From assembly GCF_022531965.1 (NCBI RefSeq), contig NZ_CP092831.1, positions 3,047,001 to 3,111,000 of the forward strand: 64,000 nt of DNA, given 5' to 3'. Positions 16,608 through 57,561 of the stretch are shown piece by piece (position 1 is the first letter of the stretch; every line of letters starts with the position of its first letter). The stretch is from Paenibacillus peoriae. Its GTDB lineage: Bacteria > Bacillota > Bacilli > Paenibacillales > Paenibacillaceae. Under the pieces are notes generated by a model. That model saw nothing but the letters and a program-made list of their open reading frames with translations. It was not told where the DNA came from and searched no databases. The position numbers and the translations under genes were made by a program.

Positions 16608-16635
16608 AGTTAACATAATATTTATTATGTAAATT
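16608..16635. repeat. dif-like palindrome 1 (11-6-11)
   Basis: Left arm AGTTAACATAA, central six TATTTA, right arm TTATGTAAATT. Each arm matches 10 of 11 bases of the XerD half-site TTATGTAAACT of Bacillus subtilis dif (left arm in reverse). The 18-base core is a perfect palindrome apart from the central bases. Left border of the MFS block. Confidence 0.6.
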
Positions 16636-16892: not shown

Positions 16893-18110
16893 TTGTTTAA
16901 TAATCCATATATAAGGACCATAATCGCCTCCAATGCGCTGCTAAATTTGGGCATTTGGGTGCGCAACTTTGCCATACTGTTGTATGTAACAGATTTGACT
17001 CATAATGATCCCGTATACGTGTCGCTCATTTCAGTTGCTGAATTCATGCCTATTTTTCTGTTCGCTATCATTGGAGGAACATTCGCGGACCGTTGGCGGC
17101 CCAAACGGACCATGATTAGTTGCGATTTGCTGTCCGCTGCCTCTATTTTTATTGTCTTGTTGGCATTATGGTACGGGTCATGGCAGGTGCTTTTGCTGTC
17201 CACTTTCTTTTCGGCCATTCTATCTCAATTTTCTCAGCCGTCTGCGATGAAGATATTTAAGCAGCATGTAGCACCAGAACAGCTTCAGGGAGTGATGGCC
17301 CTTTTTCAATCTCTCATGGCATTATTTATGGTTATCGGCCCCGTTATCGGTACATTTATTTATCAACACTTTGGAATTTTCATTTCAATGTCTATATCCG
17401 GAATATTGTTTCTCATCTCGGCGCTTGTCCTGACTCGTATTCCACAAGATGAACAAGCACTTGAGATAGATGATCAACCCCCTCATTTCATTCAAGAGCT
17501 TAAAGAAGGAATACGTTATGTATGGAATAACCGCACACTTCGCACGCTTGGGGGAACATTCACCGTAATTGGGCTAGCGGTCGGACTTATTCAACCATTA
17601 ATGGTTTTTATCGCCATCGAGAACCTTGGACAAAACAAGGAATTCCTGCAATGGCCATTAATGGCGAACGGAGCGGCTATGCTGGTGGGAGGCGGTCTGA
17701 TTATGGGGGTTGCCAAAAAAGTACAGCCGCAATTACTGCTGGTGGTCGGACTTTTGGTCAGCACACTGACAACCTTTGGAGTCGGATGGTCGCACAATAT
17801 TGTGCTGACCATGGCACTACAAGTTTTCAGCGGCCTATTTTATCCTTGCATTCATATCGGTATCAACACAATGATGATGAAAAACGCCGAAGCTGCTTTT
17901 ATCGGCCGCGTCGGTGGTGCCCTCTCTCCCCTGTTCTCCGGGATGATGGTCGTCGGTATGAGTATTGGCGGAACACTCAAACACGAATCCTCCCTGAACA
18001 CCGTATATACCGTGAGCGCCGGCTTGTTTTTGGTCGGAGCGACGCTGTTGTTACCATTGCTTCGTGACAGGCGGCCTGTACAAGCTGTCATAGCCGATGA
18101 TTCTGAATAG
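16893..18110 (+). CDS. MFS transporter, DHA3-like drug efflux type
   Basis: Integral membrane protein of 405 residues with about twelve hydrophobic helices. It fits the DHA3 branch of the major facilitator superfamily, which includes macrolide exporters of the Mef type. The motif-A loop between helices 2 and 3 is seen as GGTFADRWRPKRTM (about 60-73), and a central hydrophilic loop with a HFIQELKEGIRYVW segment is typical of this branch. Start is a TTG at 16893 after AAAGGAGAG at seven bases. It lies between dif-like sites 1 and 2, and is followed by a terminator and an ABC gene remnant. Drug or antibiotic export is the likely role, substrate unknown. Confidence 0.85.
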   Translation: MFNNPYIRTIIASNALLNLGIWVRNFAILLYVTDLTHNDPVYVSLISVAEFMPIFLFAIIGGTFADRWRPKRTMISCDLLSAASIFIVLLALWYGSWQVLLLSTFFSAILSQFSQPSAMKIFKQHVAPEQLQGVMALFQSLMALFMVIGPVIGTFIYQHFGIFISMSISGILFLISALVLTRIPQDEQALEIDDQPPHFIQELKEGIRYVWNNRTLRTLGGTFTVIGLAVGLIQPLMVFIAIENLGQNKEFLQWPLMANGAAMLVGGGLIMGVAKKVQPQLLLVVGLLVSTLTTFGVGWSHNIVLTMALQVFSGLFYPCIHIGINTMMMKNAEAAFIGRVGGALSPLFSGMMVVGMSIGGTLKHESSLNTVYTVSAGLFLVGATLLLPLLRDRRPVQAVIADDSE

Positions 18111-18117
18111 CAGCACA

Positions 18118-18168
18118 AGAAACCGCCCCTGGAGAGGTGATATGCCATCCTCCGGGGCGGTTTCTTAA
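18118..18168. terminator. Bidirectional terminator between MFS gene and ABC remnant
   Basis: Stem AAGAAACCGCCCC / GGGGCGGTTTCTT enclosing an inner GGAGAGG/CCTCC pairing; serves the MFS gene on plus and the ABC remnant on minus. Confidence 0.85.
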
Positions 18169-18193
18169 TGTTTGTATCATAATTTCAGACGGA

Positions 18194-18420
18194 TTATGAC
18201 TCTCTTCCTTCATGCTGTCTTTTCCACAATCGTGCATCCAGGCCGTTATCATCCAACAGCTCATCATGTTGTCCCTGCCCTACGGCCATTCCTTTGTCCA
18301 ATACTACAATACGGTCCGCGTTTCGTATCGTTTTGAGGCGATGAGCAATAGCAATGACCGTTCCACCTTGGACAAGGCGGTTAATAGCCTGTTGAATATC
18401 CTTCTCATTATCATTTAATA
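18194..18420 (-). pseudogene. C-terminal remnant of an ABC transporter ATPase
   Basis: Minus-strand frame without a start, ending in TAA at 18196-18194. It begins abruptly at NDNEKDIQQAINRL, the segment just after the D-loop of an ABC ATPase, and continues through the H-loop VIAIAHRLKTIRNADRIVVL to a normal C-terminus (LWKRQHEGRES). About 75 residues remain of what would be a 550-600 residue exporter-type half transporter. Walker A, signature and Walker B are gone. The break lies about 26 bases from dif-like site 2, so loss of the 5' part by recombination near that site is a reasonable inference. It differs from the ABC exporter at 27257-28978. Confidence 0.85.
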
Positions 18421-18445
18421 GATAACAAAACTTTATTAGATATCG

Positions 18446-18473
18446 AGTTTACATAATATATGTTATGTTAATA
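18446..18473. repeat. dif-like palindrome 2
   Basis: Left arm AGTTTACATAA (perfect reverse of the XerD half-site TTATGTAAACT), central TATATG, right arm TTATGTTAATA (8 of 11). Lies between the ABC remnant and the attenuator of the MutS2-like gene. Its better arm points left, opposite to site 3. Confidence 0.65.
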
Positions 18474-18510
18474 TAAGGATCACCATTGTAGCGTATTAAA
18501 GAAGTAGGAC

Positions 18511-18540
18511 TTGACTTCAACGCCTGTCCAATCGTATAGT
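18511..18540 (+). promoter_or_regulatory. Promoter of the MutS2-like transcript
   Basis: TTGACT (18511-18516), 18-base spacer, TATAGT (18535-18540). It starts a leader of nearly 480 bases that precedes the MutS2-like gene; no other promoter is visible closer to that gene. Confidence 0.6.
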
Positions 18541-18573
18541 ATGGTTATATCTTCAATTAAGGGAGAGATTTTG

Positions 18574-18597
18574 ATGTCGGTGAACGTTCTTAACTAA
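18574..18597 (+). CDS. Leader peptide MSVNVLN of the attenuator
   Basis: Eight codons including the stop, ATG at 18574, with a GGGAGAG ribosome site about seven bases upstream. The peptide is MSVNVLN. Its last four codons form one arm of a 12-base inverted repeat, so a ribosome paused on it would prevent that stem from forming. Such short ORFs precede erm, ABC-F and bmrCD-type genes in Firmicutes. I do not know this exact peptide from a described case. Confidence 0.55.
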   Translation: MSVNVLN

Positions 18598-18742
18598 GCA
18601 ATTACATATTCAGGGAGTATCATCAGGCGCTTGTACCCTTCGGGGACAGGTTTGTTTGTTGCTGTGTTGTTACCCTGATATTAGTTAAGAACATGCGGAT
18701 ATCATAGATCGCCTTCGGGATTATCTTCATCTAGGCCCTATT

Positions 18743-18769
18743 CCGTGCTGTGTTCAGCGCGGTTTTTTT
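18743..18769 (+). terminator. Attenuator terminator (first)
   Basis: Stem CCGTGCTG / CAGCGCGG, four-base loop, seven T residues. Lies inside the leader of the MutS2-like gene. Confidence 0.8.
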
Positions 18770-18828
18770 GTTTTCAGATTTTGTAACTTCCCTTTAAACG
18801 TCTTCCTTTCACGATCCCAATAGCTTAG

Positions 18829-18903
18829 CAAAGAACTATTGCGTGAATGAATTGGAAAAACGTAACTCGGAACTACAAAAGTTGAATAACAGGCTTATTT
18901 GAA
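18829..18903 (+). pseudogene. Possible coding remnant (coiled-coil tail)
   Basis: An open stretch ending in TGA reads ELEKRNSELQKLNNRLI, a heptad-like charged helix, directly followed by a strong terminator. It has no start or ribosome site and is closed upstream by a stop. It may be the 3' end of a lost gene between the two terminators. Weak. Confidence 0.25.
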
Positions 18904-18923
18904 GATAAATTCCCTCTTTCCTT

Positions 18924-18971
18924 AAGGGCGGAGAATGAACGTTTTGTTCATTCTCCGCCCTTTTTTATTTT
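18924..18971 (+). terminator. Second strong terminator before the MutS2-like gene
   Basis: Perfect 15-base stem GGGCGGAGAATGAAC / GTTCATTCTCCGCCC, five-base loop, TTTTTTATTTT. Only 55 bases lie between it and the MutS2-like start codon, with no promoter in between. Confidence 0.9.
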
Positions 18972-19025
18972 AACAGCAAGGTTTTCTAAATCCTTACACC
19001 ACACAACCAAAGGAGAGATTTATTC

Positions 19026-20987
19026 ATGAACGAAACTACAATGCTGCGTTTGGAATATGATCAAATTAAAACAAGAGTTTCTGAATGTGCTTTTTCTTAC
19101 CTGGGTAAGCGTCACGCTGCTACTATGCGGCCAATTACTGATATCCGTACCATTAAGATTCGTCTTGACGAAACGAACGAAGCGTTACAGATCATTCGCC
19201 ACGGAGCAAGCGTTCCTGTTCCTTCGTTGGAAGGTATGGAGCACATTCTTCAACTGCTCGGAACCGGGTATATGTTCAGCGAGCGTGATTTTTCTCATAT
19301 GGCTCAATTCATTCGAAGCTGTATTCAACTGATAAAATATATGCATTCCAAGGCGGACGCTGCTCCAACCGTCAGCGCTTATGCATCTTCCATGTATAGC
19401 ATGGAGCCACTTTTATCCGAAATCGAAAGATGTATTCATTCGGGACGTGTGACGGATATGGCCAGTAAAGAACTAGCTAAAATTCGCAAAAAAATTGCGG
19501 TTACTGAAGAACGTATCAAGAGAAAACTTGACTCTCTCACCAGCCGTCACCGATCCATTATGCAAGAAAATATGATTAGTCAGCGCAATGGCCGTTACGT
19601 GCTTCCAATCAAAAAAGAATTCCGTAAACAAGTGAAAGGTAATGTACTGGATGAATCAGGAAGTGGTCAAACGGTTTACGTTGAACCTGCCGAGATTACG
19701 AATCTGCAATTCGATCAGAGCGCGAACATGGCAGAAGAATCAAAAGAAGAAATGAAAGTGCTGGGAGACCTGACGGCAATGGCTGAGTCATACAACCGGG
19801 AACTAAGCATCAATACAGAGACAGTAGGTGTATTGGATTTTTTATTGGCAAAAGCCAAATACGCCATGACTCTGGATGCTATCCCTGTCGAACTTAACCT
19901 TAACGGGATTATAGACATCCAAGGTGCACGTCACCCGTTGATGTCCCATACCATGGTGCCGCTTGATTTCTCAATTGGCGAAGGATATTCCTCACTCATC
20001 ATCACCGGACCGAACACAGGCGGAAAAACGATGGCCCTCAAAAGCGTCGGTCTTTTAACACTAATGGTGCAATCGGGGCTACTGGTACCTGTTTTGCATG
20101 GCAGCCGAATGGCTGTATTCGAGGAAATTGTGGTAGACATCGGGGATGGACAAAGCATTGAACATGCTTTGAGCACCTTTTCTGCACACATCCGCAACAT
20201 GATTAGCATATTAGAGACAACAGGCAACTCTACTCTGATCCTGATTGATGAAATGGCATCCGGTACCGATCCGGGAGAAGGAGTAGGTCTCTCTATCGCG
20301 TTGCTAGAAGAATTCCATCGTCGCCGGGCGACAGTAGTGGCTACAACGCACTTTAGCGAAATTAAGCATTTTGCTGAAAATACACCGGGATTTCAGAATG
20401 CTCGTATGGAGTTTGATACCGAAACGCTACAGCCTTTGTACCGACTTCGCATTGGAGAGGCCGGAGAAAGCTACGCATATGCAATTGCCCTGAAGCTGGG
20501 CATGTGGACACGTATTATCGAGCGTTCCGAGGCCATTTCTGCGGGCAGAGCATCTCAAAATACACAGGAATCGTTTGTTATTCCCCCTTGTGTTGATGAT
20601 GAAATGTCTGATGATGCAAATAAGTCTCTTCCTAAAAAAGCGGCTTTTGACGATACAGCCACAAAACAGAGGAAACAAGAACTTCCTCTCAAAACCAAGC
20701 CATTTGCCCTTGGTGATAGTGTTTATGTAGGCTACCTGGATCGAACTGGAATTGTATACAAAACCGAGGATGAACGGGGGAATGTCGGAATTTTGATCCA
20801 AGGACAAAAACTGAGCATTAACAAAAAGAGGCTCGTCCTTCACATCGCTGCTACTGAACTGTATCCTGACGACTATGATCTGGATATTGTTTTAGAAACC
20901 AAGGAAAACCGCAAAAAACGGAAACTGCTGAGACGCAAGCATGTCGAAGGAGTGATGATCGAATCTCCCCCAGAAAATGAAATATAG
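19026..20987 (+). CDS. MutS2-like ATPase lacking the Smr domain
   Basis: A 653-residue paralogue of MutS2. MutS2 of Bacillus senses collided ribosomes and splits them. Seen: MutS2-type core/clamp (1-290, with LTSRHRSIMQENMISQRNGR and SGQTVYVEP), the ATPase with Walker A GPNTGGKT (328-335), Walker B LILIDEMASGTDPGEG (404-419) and the switch histidine TTHFSEIKH; then a KOW-like domain (about 560-610, GDSVYVGYLDRTGIV). The long coiled coil between ATPase and KOW is shortened and varied, and the protein ends in a basic tail where the roughly 75-residue Smr nuclease domain should be. ATG with AAAGGAGAG nearby. It sits between dif-like sites 2 and 3 behind an attenuator. Role as a ribosome-acting resistance or rescue factor is inferred. 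Confidence 0.88.
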   Translation: MNETTMLRLEYDQIKTRVSECAFSYLGKRHAATMRPITDIRTIKIRLDETNEALQIIRHGASVPVPSLEGMEHILQLLGTGYMFSERDFSHMAQFIRSCIQLIKYMHSKADAAPTVSAYASSMYSMEPLLSEIERCIHSGRVTDMASKELAKIRKKIAVTEERIKRKLDSLTSRHRSIMQENMISQRNGRYVLPIKKEFRKQVKGNVLDESGSGQTVYVEPAEITNLQFDQSANMAEESKEEMKVLGDLTAMAESYNRELSINTETVGVLDFLLAKAKYAMTLDAIPVELNLNGIIDIQGARHPLMSHTMVPLDFSIGEGYSSLIITGPNTGGKTMALKSVGLLTLMVQSGLLVPVLHGSRMAVFEEIVVDIGDGQSIEHALSTFSAHIRNMISILETTGNSTLILIDEMASGTDPGEGVGLSIALLEEFHRRRATVVATTHFSEIKHFAENTPGFQNARMEFDTETLQPLYRLRIGEAGESYAYAIALKLGMWTRIIERSEAISAGRASQNTQESFVIPPCVDDEMSDDANKSLPKKAAFDDTATKQRKQELPLKTKPFALGDSVYVGYLDRTGIVYKTEDERGNVGILIQGQKLSINKKRLVLHIAATELYPDDYDLDIVLETKENRKKRKLLRRKHVEGVMIESPPENEI

Positions 20988-21458
20988 ACGCACCGGTATA
21001 TTCTCAACTGAAAAATAAGCTATTTTTATATTGTCAGTGAAACTTGAATCTGCAAGCGGACACTTAACAAGAGCGATCCACTTGCAGATTCTACCACAAC
21101 GAAAAACATAATATATATTATGTAAACTAAACGGTTTCCCTCTTATTTGTATTACTCAATCCGGCACTCATCGAATAATCACTTTTGTTATCATTCTAAC
21201 GTTAGGATACAAAGGCATCTTATGCTTAGATTTGTAGGATTCAAAAAATTGATAGGGATGTTCTTCTTTCATGAGAACGTCCTCATTTAAATTAACTACC
21301 ATAGTACCAGGTTCAAATTTATTTCTTTAAATAAATTTGTGTTAGCTTTCGTCAAGGCAATATCATACTAACCTTTAATTCACCATTGCTTTCCAGCTTA
21401 TTTTGAATTATTCTAATGCTAATCATAAGACGATCATTAAAATAAGGAGGCTAGTCTA
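20988..21458. other. Gap after the MutS2-like gene with inverted repeat and dif-like site 3
   Basis: 471 AT-rich bases. An inverted repeat GAATCTGCAAG (21046-21056) / CTTGCAGATTC (21081-21091) with a 24-base loop follows the MutS2-like gene and may act as its terminator although no T run follows. dif-like site 3 comes next. From 21130 to 21440 I see no gene. Confidence 0.55.
21101..21128. repeat. dif-like palindrome 3
   Basis: Core ACATAATATATATTATGT with right arm TTATGTAAACT, a perfect XerD half-site; the left arm GAAAAACATAA is degenerate (6 of 11). The 19 bases AATATATATTATGTAAACT are identical to the right part of the published B. subtilis dif as I remember it. The better arm points right, opposite to site 2, so the MutS2-like block is framed by inverted sites. 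Confidence 0.7.
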
Positions 21459-21790
21459 TTGAAGAATGCTGTTGAAGAACTGGCGAGAATCATCGAAGAT
21501 TTATCATGATTAAGCATTCAACATCCCCTATCAAAATTGAATCGTATGCGCAAAATGAATGGGTGGCAGCTAATCAGTATCAGGAAGTGTTCTCTTACGT
21601 GGATGTCATACATCTATGGAAACTATTGAATAAGCAAATCATAAATGTTTTAAACTCATGTACATCATTCGATTCTAAGAAAAGATTTCAAAAAGATGAC
21701 CACTCCACCGAAACATTACAGTGGCTAGTTGACGATTATATTCAGCATTTGCGGCATCATTTGGAACAAATCAATCAAAAACAAGACTAA
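21459..21790 (+). pseudogene. Broken dinB-family gene
   Basis: AAGGAGG precedes a TTG at 21459 that begins a 16-codon frame (KNAVEELARIIEDLS) ending in TGA at 21509. An ATG overlapping that stop begins a 94-codon frame whose residues SYAQNEWVAANQYQEV, LWKLLNKQI and TLQWLVDDYIQHLRHHLEQI are the C-terminal two thirds of a DinB_2-type four-helix protein. The normal N-terminal helix and metal ligands (about 40-50 residues, including the first histidine) are missing. An internal deletion with frame change explains both pieces. DinB-like proteins are often thiol transferases. It lies between dif-like sites 3 and 4. Confidence 0.7.
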
Positions 21791-21878: not shown

Positions 21879-21906
21879 AGTTTACATAATTATTATTATG
21901 TAAACT
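21879..21906. repeat. dif-like palindrome 4
   Basis: Left arm AGTTTACATAA, central TTATTA, right arm TTATGTAAACT: both arms are perfect XerD half-sites. Flanking bases extend the symmetry to 16-base arms (21875-21890 and 21895-21910). It lies 34 bases beyond the stop codon of the tyrosine recombinase gene. Confidence 0.7.
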
Positions 21907-21939: not shown

Positions 21940-22896
21940 TTATAATCCTGATATTGGTATCTGAATATCCAGCTTATCCATTGCTTTTTCTTTTTCCCGA
22001 TCAGTGACATGTGTGTATACTGTGGTTGTCTGAATGGATGAATGCCCTAGCAGCTCCTGTACGGTACGCAGATCTGCTCCCTTACGCAATAGCATTGTCG
22101 CAAATGTATGTCTCAGCTTATGGCTGGAATAAGCCTCCCGGCGTTCTATACTCTTATCTTGCTGGAATCTTTCGAACGTTTCTGTAGCGATCTGTTGAAT
22201 AGTGCGCACTGCCAGACGGCGACCTTTTTGGGATACAAACATCGCATCCTCTTTACCTCTCCACGGCGTCAATCTTTCCTCCAACGCATGCTCCACAAAA
22301 TCACACACGGCTTCCGGTACCGGGAGAGTACGCCACTTACGTCCTTTACCGAACACATCTAAGGTACGTCTTTCTCGACTGTAATCCGAGACATTCAATG
22401 AGTGAACCTCCCCCACCCGCAATCCCATGTAAACCATCAGCAGAAAAATTGCCATATTACGATTTGCATATTTCCCTTCCACCGCAAGCAAAAACGGATG
22501 AATATCCTTTTCATCCAGATAGACGGGCATACGATTCTTTTCAGTCTTTGCTTTTTTAATTCCCGCTGCCGGATTTGTGCTGCATAACTCAAATTCCTGT
22601 AGCGCTTTAAAAAAACTGTTCACCGCTGCATGCTTCCGGTTCCGCGTACTATCTCCGGCGCCTCCTTCCCGCGCTTTAGACAAATACGACATAACATGAA
22701 TCTTCTTCACCTGATCGAGTGGTTTATCACGCAACGTGCGTAAAAACTGCTTCACATCCCCTATATAATTTTTTTGCGTATGTATCGTATATCCAGCATC
22801 CTTCATCCAAATCAAAAAAGCTTCCAGCTCCTCAGTATATATTTCATCAATTTCTTCTGTTGTATCGAGCTCCACATGTCGCAACTCTTTTTTCAT
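21940..22896 (-). CDS. XerC/XerD-type tyrosine recombinase
   Basis: Site-specific recombinase of 318 residues. The N-terminal SAM-like core-binding domain spans about 20-105. The catalytic domain shows Arg160 (GLRVGEV), Lys184 (GKGRKW), His259 and Arg262 (SHKLRH), His285 (LLGHSS) and the nucleophile Tyr294 (TVYTHV), so the set is complete. The ATG at 22896 follows TTGGAGG at eight bases; the longer frame to 22911 begins inside that ribosome site. It adjoins dif-like site 4 and is the natural candidate for acting on these sites, or the resident XerC/XerD may do so. Unlike a phage integrase it is short and lacks an arm-binding domain. Confidence 0.92.
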
Positions 22897-23193
22897 CCCG
22901 CTCGCCTCCAATTCAGTTCATATTCCGAAATATACTGTAAAACGATCATTTTCGTCTGATTTTTATCGACAATTCAATCGACATCTTACGCAGGAGAGAT
23001 TCCAAAAGTCGTTTTAAACCTAAACAGCGTATAATTTATATTATACGCTGTTTTTTAAACGCTTTTCAAGGGCAAATAGAGCGTTTTTCCTCTTGTTTAG
23101 CAACCGAGCGAAAGCTTTAGCATTAGAACCGCATAAATGCGGTTCATATTCGTTATAATTTTGTTCGCCAGTAACCAGAAAGGCACTACTACT
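22897..23193. other. Gap upstream of the recombinase with several palindromes
   Basis: Contains the recombinase promoter region, the palindrome at 23024-23051, a second hairpin AAACGC / GCGTTT near 23055-23095, and a 20-base palindrome GAACCGCATAAATGCGGTTC (23126-23145). No gene is visible. Confidence 0.5.
23024..23051. repeat. 11-6-11 palindrome upstream of the recombinase
   Basis: ACAGCGTATAA, TTTATA, TTATACGCTGT, followed by a T run on the plus strand. The arms match the XerC half ACTTCCTATAA of Firmicute dif at 8 of 11 positions. It could equally be an intrinsic terminator for plus-strand transcription, though no gene precedes it. Confidence 0.45.
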
Positions 23194-57533: not shown

Positions 57534-57561
57534 TGTTTACATAATATATATTATGTTTAAT
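57534..57561. repeat. dif-like palindrome 5
   Basis: Left arm TGTTTACATAA (10 of 11 to the XerD half-site), central TATATA, right arm TTATGTTTAAT (8 of 11). Its 18-base core is identical to that of site 3, 36 kb away. Lies alone between the deacetylase terminator and the convergent LysM-3D gene. Confidence 0.6.

Follow-up and report, generated by a model that had tools for sequence, protein, structure and literature searches.

A putative leader attenuator, conserved across Bacilli, precedes a Smr-less MutS2 paralogue that may rescue stalled ribosomes

The 64,000-nucleotide stretch of the Paenibacillus peoriae genome analyzed here (the window; NZ_CP092831.1, positions 3,047,001 to 3,111,000) contains a gene for a MutS2-type protein lacking the Smr domain, which we call MutS2p. 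Ahead of the gene lies a putative leader with a seven-codon open reading frame (ORF), an inverted repeat (helix P1) and two terminators (T1 and T2), and the whole unit sits in an array of dif-like sites adjoining the gene of a tyrosine recombinase, XerL (Table 1). An initial annotation of this DNA had proposed that MutS2p is an inducible ribosome-splitting factor for resistance or rescue, analogous to HflXr, and the analysis described here follows up that proposal.

Table 1 Features of the MutS2p locus and its surroundings in the window.
Feature	Positions	Strand	Basis or remark
dif-like site A, left edge of variable array	16608..16635	.	palindrome scan, synteny
dif-like palindromic site B, left edge of MutS2p module	18446..18473	-	palindrome scan
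Promoter-like TTGACT-18-TATAGT of leader transcript	18511..18540	+	consensus scan
Leader ORF MSVNVLN-stop, AGGGAG ahead	18574..18597	+	sequence
Helix P1 5' arm (codons V, L, N, stop), putative anti-antiterminator arm	18586..18597	+	inverted repeat, consensus fold
Helix P1 3' arm	18681..18692	+	inverted repeat, consensus fold, covariation
Proposed antiterminator strand GAACATGCGGA	18689..18699	+	can pair with 18742-18755, 5' half of T1
Intrinsic terminator T1, then U tract	18743..18762	+	terminator scan, consensus fold
Second, gene-proximal terminator T2, 17-bp perfect stem	18924..18962	+	terminator scan, inverted repeat
MutS2p ribosome-binding site AAGGAGAGA	19010..19018	+	sequence; invariant in window and seven relatives
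Smr-less MutS2 paralogue MutS2p, 653 residues	19026..20987	+	ORF, profile searches, fold
MutS2p Walker A GPNTGGKT, residues 328-335	20007..20030	+	invariant in 33 aligned paralogues
MutS2p KOW-like barrel, residues about 560-607	20703..20846	+	hhalign and structure model
dif-like site C, right edge of MutS2p module, orientation opposite to B	21101..21128	+	palindrome scan
dif-like site D, perfect 11+6+11 palindrome, 33 nucleotides from recombinase ORF	21879..21906	.	palindrome scan
XerC/D-like tyrosine recombinase XerL	21940..22911	-	TIGR02224, 203 bits, below cut-off 335
Isolated dif-like site	57534-57561		far from array

MutS2p scores 573 bits against the mutS2 model TIGR01069 (cut-off 400), although the match covers only profile positions 2-512 of 790, and it matches 7qv3 both in sequence and in fold; by these two comparisons the lever, clamp and MutS-type ATPase core of MutS2 are all present. 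MutS_V is the sole domain returned by a Pfam scan. The C-terminus aligns with the KOW region of MutS2 (hhalign probability 92.7 over 46 columns) and is predicted to form a five-stranded barrel with a predicted local distance difference test (pLDDT) score of about 79-85. In agreement with the initial annotation, no Smr domain was found, either as a Pfam match or by hhalign against the Smr of MutS2 (probability 0.4). The coiled coil, which had been described as shortened, does depart from that of MutS2, but it is replaced by a linker of about 50 residues, modelled with low confidence, rather than merely trimmed. Because the Smr domain is missing, we class MutS2p as a MutS2-family paralogue and not as MutS2 proper. 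A full-length MutS2 of 795 residues, 38% identical to MutS2p over 500 residues, is encoded elsewhere in the same genome (G000 C1:1694332), so the truncated gene is not the only mutS2, as the initial proposal presupposed, and it has a housekeeping counterpart as HflXr-like genes do.

A tree of 76 rows separates 48 leader-bearing paralogues (Shimodaira-Hasegawa-like approximate likelihood ratio test, SH-aLRT, 95) from 12 leaderless Smr-less proteins (100) and 16 full-length MutS2 proteins (100). Its branches are long, some joins could be spurious according to the program's own caution, and five of the 48 leader rows (L190, L191, L193, L196 and L197) came from a search for the leader pattern. At E ≤ 1e-150, a match to MutS2p is present in 70 of 75 genus genomes and missing from five. 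Databases name proteins of this type 'endonuclease MutS2' or 'DNA mismatch repair protein MutS', and a defence gene was considered and rejected, no PADLOC model having matched.

The promoter-like site, MSVNVLN leader, 12-base inverted repeat and two terminators listed by the initial annotation were all recovered in the sequence and scans. The TTGACTT and TATAnT of the promoter-like site are invariant in the window, which belongs to the P. polymyxa group, and in seven relatives from that group (L022-L028); promoter-like matches in general are not commoner than in shuffles (5 observed versus 7.0 expected). The two arms of P1 form a perfect repeat. Terminator-like sites are enriched on both strands of 18200-21300 (10 versus 2.6 in shuffles, standard deviation 1.9), and folding of 18547-18972 gives a z of -8.45. 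Between T2 and the gene (18971 to 19026), where a mapped promoter would count against the initial proposal, the consensus scan gave no promoter-like match. Rfam returned nothing above gathering for 17500-21500 of the window, with two weak sub-threshold matches, and none of six related loci reached the gathering score. An amino-acid attenuator was considered and rejected, as the leader has no run of any single codon. By eye, many loci also carry an AATTnCATA-like motif after the leader stop (18600-18608 in the window).

Conservation of the leader was followed first through the genus, in a set of 76 loci (7 + 29 + 40 from three retrievals, with some places fetched twice), and then in more distant Bacilli. 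The short leader ORF that the initial annotation suggested looking for at homologues is found upstream of the protein-homology loci in 76/76 and 28/28 cases, respectively, each time with a Shine-Dalgarno sequence and overlapping the putative anti-antiterminator helix. In the genus set a V-L-N peptide is found by pattern in 75 of 76 loci, the remaining one (L083) reading MSVSILN, and in 66 of 76 there is a T2-like hairpin whose top is of the (A)ATGA(A)C / GTTCAT(T) type. For consensus folds, 32 leaders were picked at <96% identity, and T1 precedes the gene in these sequences. Paired cells amount to 97.7% for P1, 99.6% for the T1 stem, with CG/UA/UG variation at one pair, and 94.7% for the proposed antiterminator, where one pair is changed on both sides in one sequence.

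Outside the genus, 112 of 398 genomes of Bacilli gave 115 matches at E ≤ 1e-105, some of them full-length MutS2. We retrieved 40 of these class-level places, 28 at no less than 40% identity and 12 at 34-37%. All 28 of the former have a short ORF ending in V-L-N, V-L-R or V-L-S together with a downstream complementary arm, whereas the leader was found in none of the 12 latter, which belong to the Smr-less sister clade. Two of the repeats (L230 and L257) were missed by an exact 9-mer rule and recovered in a second comparison, and one locus (L222, genome G104) is also a pattern hit. Another (L241) was matched to an alternative pairing, and runs of 9 are estimated to be only slightly above chance taken alone. 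The stop codon is TGA in L233, with CAGTTAAGAAC, and TAG in L221, L224, L226, L231 and L232; L230 and L257 have GTTGTTCTGAATTAA with an arm containing TCAGGACAAC, and L234 and L235 encode VVLR, with GAAGAACAAC. In several lineages the leader codons thus covary with the arms, yet the peptide still ends in V-L-N (rarely R or S in the last place), which is evidence that the ORF is translated and that the arms pair. Leader and gene track the paralogue clade through many families of Bacilli, and conservation on this scale supports the reading of the region as a leader attenuator.

The leader is not confined to MutS2 paralogues. Of 295 family genomes, 107 contain the P1 pattern, the reversed control giving none among the matches listed; of 398 class genomes, 45 contain it, and the reversed control matches in 3. 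These searches supplied 100 pattern loci (L098-L197, some re-fetched), at which the gene behind the pattern is the MutS2 paralogue in 67 cases, a BpsA-like gene (2.5e-45 against PF01861) in 32 and neither in one (L172). The BpsA-like clade is marked by GDDD, TDPPYT and a CxxC...CxxC tail, and its DPPY motif presumably resembles that of methyltransferases; in five ordinary BpsA proteins of Bacilli aligned with it, the motif reads TDPVET or TDP[VI]DT and the tail is acidic. When 30 loci were instead taken by BpsA family, the leader was present at 16 of 19 TDPPYT loci and at 0 of 9 parsed ordinary loci, a count that leaves aside the unparsed L293 and L294. The three exceptions are L313, without a leader, L312, whose leader has lost its stop codon, and L311, a short open frame (290 residues) with no leader in the 650 nucleotides ahead; the leader of L314 was missed by the script and recognised by reading. 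Enzymes with this fold, TDPPYT, the CxxC tail and the same leader were seen at L143, L129, L131, L304-L310 and L314-L322. PF01861 finds no match in the genome from which the window comes. In Tk-BpsA, C-terminal acidic residues are the aminopropyl carriers (PMC12979288), and for this reason the TDPPYT clade, judged by its motifs, may catalyse another reaction than BpsA.

These features suggest a switch in which transcription would start near 18547. With the leader translated normally, P1 would form and T1, backed by T2, would end transcription. A ribosome stalled on the leader, likeliest at its last codons or stop codon, would cover the 5' arm of P1; the freed 3' arm with its GCGGA would then pair with the rising half of T1, and transcription would continue into the gene. 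In the nascent window RNA, folded to 18757, antiterminator pair probabilities are 0.94-0.99 with the whole leader masked and about 0 when it is free.

MutS2 of Bacillus subtilis splits stalled ribosomes by means of its ATPase, which bears out the premise of the initial annotation, and its loss sensitises cells to chloramphenicol, tetracycline and erythromycin, although mutants of SMR or KOW are only modestly sensitive to erythromycin (PMC10897456). From its family and domains we infer that MutS2p, a MutS-type ATPase docked by its KOW barrel, likewise splits stalled ribosomes. Smr contributes to the recognition of collided ribosomes by MutS2; lacking this domain, MutS2p may target stalled ribosomes even where no collision has occurred. 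Our best reading of MutS2p is as an inducible ribosome-rescue factor. We consider it probable, though well short of certain, that leader-controlled MutS2 paralogues throughout Bacilli are emergency copies of MutS2, in which a stall on the leader leads to read-through and to an inducible, Smr-independent splitter resembling HflXr. By analogy, tolerance or resistance to ribosome-targeting antibiotics is a plausible consequence.

Several observations weigh against this interpretation. Within the genus 9 of 12 P1 pairs never vary, so there is little information there and the covariation comes from distant loci. Across the 32 nascent RNAs, the antiterminator reaches a probability of at least 0.5 in only 15 when masked (0 when free), and in full-length folds T1 wins in all 32 even with the leader masked, so that in the model either the switch is kinetic or the antiterminator is only partly captured. 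The switch does not explain the passage of T2, and the leader contains no known drug-arrest motif. Finally, SMR and KOW promote binding of B. subtilis MutS2 to collided ribosomes (PMC10897456), and a Smr-less MutS2p might therefore bind poorly.

The BpsA-like gene bears on what the leader senses. We propose, tentatively, that M-S-x-x-V-L-N-stop is an ancient stall sensor governing a two-gene regulon in Bacilli, in which a collision-independent, Smr-free splitter and a BpsA-fold enzyme are induced together and form an intrinsic rescue and resistance pathway. With the same leader ahead of the BpsA-like enzyme, however, a drug and a general translation-stress signal fit equally well: elongation or termination at V-L-N-stop could be slowed when polyamines run short, in the cold, or when a release or elongation factor is lost, and both clients would then serve translation maintenance rather than resistance. 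Such a signal is in keeping with the PF01861 fold of the second client, with the support that branched polyamines give to ribosomes and tRNAs in thermophiles (PMC12979288) and with the spread of leader and gene along the paralogue clade, a pattern expected of a maintenance function. Against it, a polyamine role is made doubtful by the exchange of the ordinary BpsA motifs; the parsed ordinary BpsA genes lack such a leader; and the seven-codon leader, whose stop falls within the 5' arm, is similar to the antibiotic sensor MsrDL (MYLIFM; PMC10314930). On balance, we regard general stress sensing as rather unlikely.

A stand-alone small RNA, ending at terminators and with no regulatory role for its leader ORF, is a very improbable account of the upstream region; MutS2p would then be expressed from elsewhere or hardly at all. 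Two strong terminators ahead of the gene, with T1 winning at equilibrium in every sequence, would suit such an RNA, but the element is tied to two gene families, its peptide end is conserved while its arms compensate, and the consensus scan gave no promoter-like match from T2 to the gene. Least probable of all is a role of MutS2p on DNA, for instance in handling the branched intermediates that Xer recombination would form at the dif-like array, the leader being incidental. MutS2 does bind branched DNA in vitro (PMC3200294), and in the P. polymyxa group dif-like sites enclose the gene as a module; yet both gene and leader are retained at L043-L273, outside that group, where 1,086,464 bases hold 0 dif-like sites, and the protein has kept the ribosome-docking KOW while losing Smr, the domain credited with nuclease activity.

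The dif-like sites themselves, defined as 11+6+11 with at least 17 of 22 arm letters, flank MutS2p in opposite orientation (B and C), the arrangement of a dif module; the relative L022 lacks site B. In the seven relatives many of the breaks in synteny with the window coincide with such sites, and gene content from one site to the next varies (efflux, ABC transporter, PPDK-type kinase, ROK, epoxide hydrolase). One of these genes encodes a PPDK_N/PEP-utiliser protein (L026:9743-12337), which we assume may be a rifampin phosphotransferase. As array sites occur in the P. polymyxa group and none near the gene elsewhere, MutS2p became a dif module in that group; a purely mobile cassette was rejected given its presence in 70/75 genus genomes and the lack of sites at the loci scanned outside the group. 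Among 75 genus genomes, 74 have a XerL match at E ≤ 1e-60, with 44-49% identity for some and a partial match in one. The sequence surrounding 17 of 19 XerL loci (not L279 or L287) contains a dif-like site. Both counts make it less likely that XerL recombines cassettes only. XerL may be a chromosome-dimer recombinase, with site D possibly the single-recombinase chromosomal dif of Paenibacillus; the lack of any GC-skew sign change in the window counts against a terminus and such a role.

Other features of the array were noted in passing. A neighbouring module holds an MFS transporter (16893-18110) that scores weakly as Mef(A)-like, at 72 bits against a cut-off of 675. The segment 18177-18413 is 85% identical to L023:596-832, inside a 574-residue ORF adjoining an ABC transporter ORF, and by eye reads as the remnant of an ABC ATPase gene. 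A short ORF at 21506-21790, perhaps a decayed module gene, gives a weak match (29 bits, cut-off 160) to a YfiT-type bacillithiol transferase model, confined to the model's C-terminal half. The isolated dif-like site lies, by eye, downstream of the end of an apparent deacetylase gene.

The initial annotation knew of no described MutS2-family resistance gene with such a leader, and our literature searches, covering the accessible portions of papers, likewise found none on a leader-controlled or Smr-less bacterial MutS2 paralogue; the available text of a terminator survey (PMC2965389) does not mention mutS, mismatch repair, Paenibacillus, Brevibacillus or DUF43. Despite the endonuclease and mismatch-repair labels, the data point to an inducible ribosome-rescue branch in many Bacilli. 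If the two-gene regulon is real, its BpsA-fold partner might be an rRNA- or tRNA-modifying enzyme or produce a protective polyamine, and the pathway would be distinct from Erm, ABC-F and HflXr. Soil Bacilli meet antibiotic producers. The family makes it possible to ask directly whether MutS2-type splitting can do without Smr, what signal halts ribosomes at V-L-N-stop, and which function the BpsA-like enzyme under the same leader has.

Bacillus subtilis MutS2, also called RqcU, differs from MutS2p, which lacks the coiled coil and Smr, lies behind the leader attenuator and falls in a separate clade. The comparison with HflXr made by the initial annotation holds in part. Like HflXr of Listeria monocytogenes, MutS2p is a splitter homologue with a second homologue in the genome and a leader-ORF transcription attenuator; unlike MutS2p, HflXr is a GTPase of another family, with a 14-residue, RLR-bearing leader, and its resistance to lincomycin and erythromycin is demonstrated (PMC6310831), whereas for MutS2p any resistance is putative. 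The Arg/Lys-X-Arg/Lys motif of the HflXr and MefA leaders (PMC6310831; PMC10314930) is the part of the likeness that fails, being absent from the MSxxVLN leaders and the variants seen. At msrD a ribosome stalled on the short leader ORF prevents the terminator from forming, erythromycin arresting it at the UAA stop codon of the six-residue MsrDL, MYLIFM (PMC10314930), and vmlR, behind uORF(MIN), has a succession of anti-antiterminator, antiterminator and terminator (PMC9226507) like the one proposed here. Those two attenuators control ABC-F proteins through MYLIFM and MIN, whereas MSxxVLN and a second terminator, T2, are found here. By analogy, MsrDL appears the closest leader and HflXr the closest logic. 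The array, in turn, resembles the chromosomal dif modules of Acinetobacter, which lie together in an island with dif-like sites at their borders (PMC12907356), but here the host belongs to the Bacilli, the sites are near-palindromic, the XerL gene adjoins the array and movement is putative.

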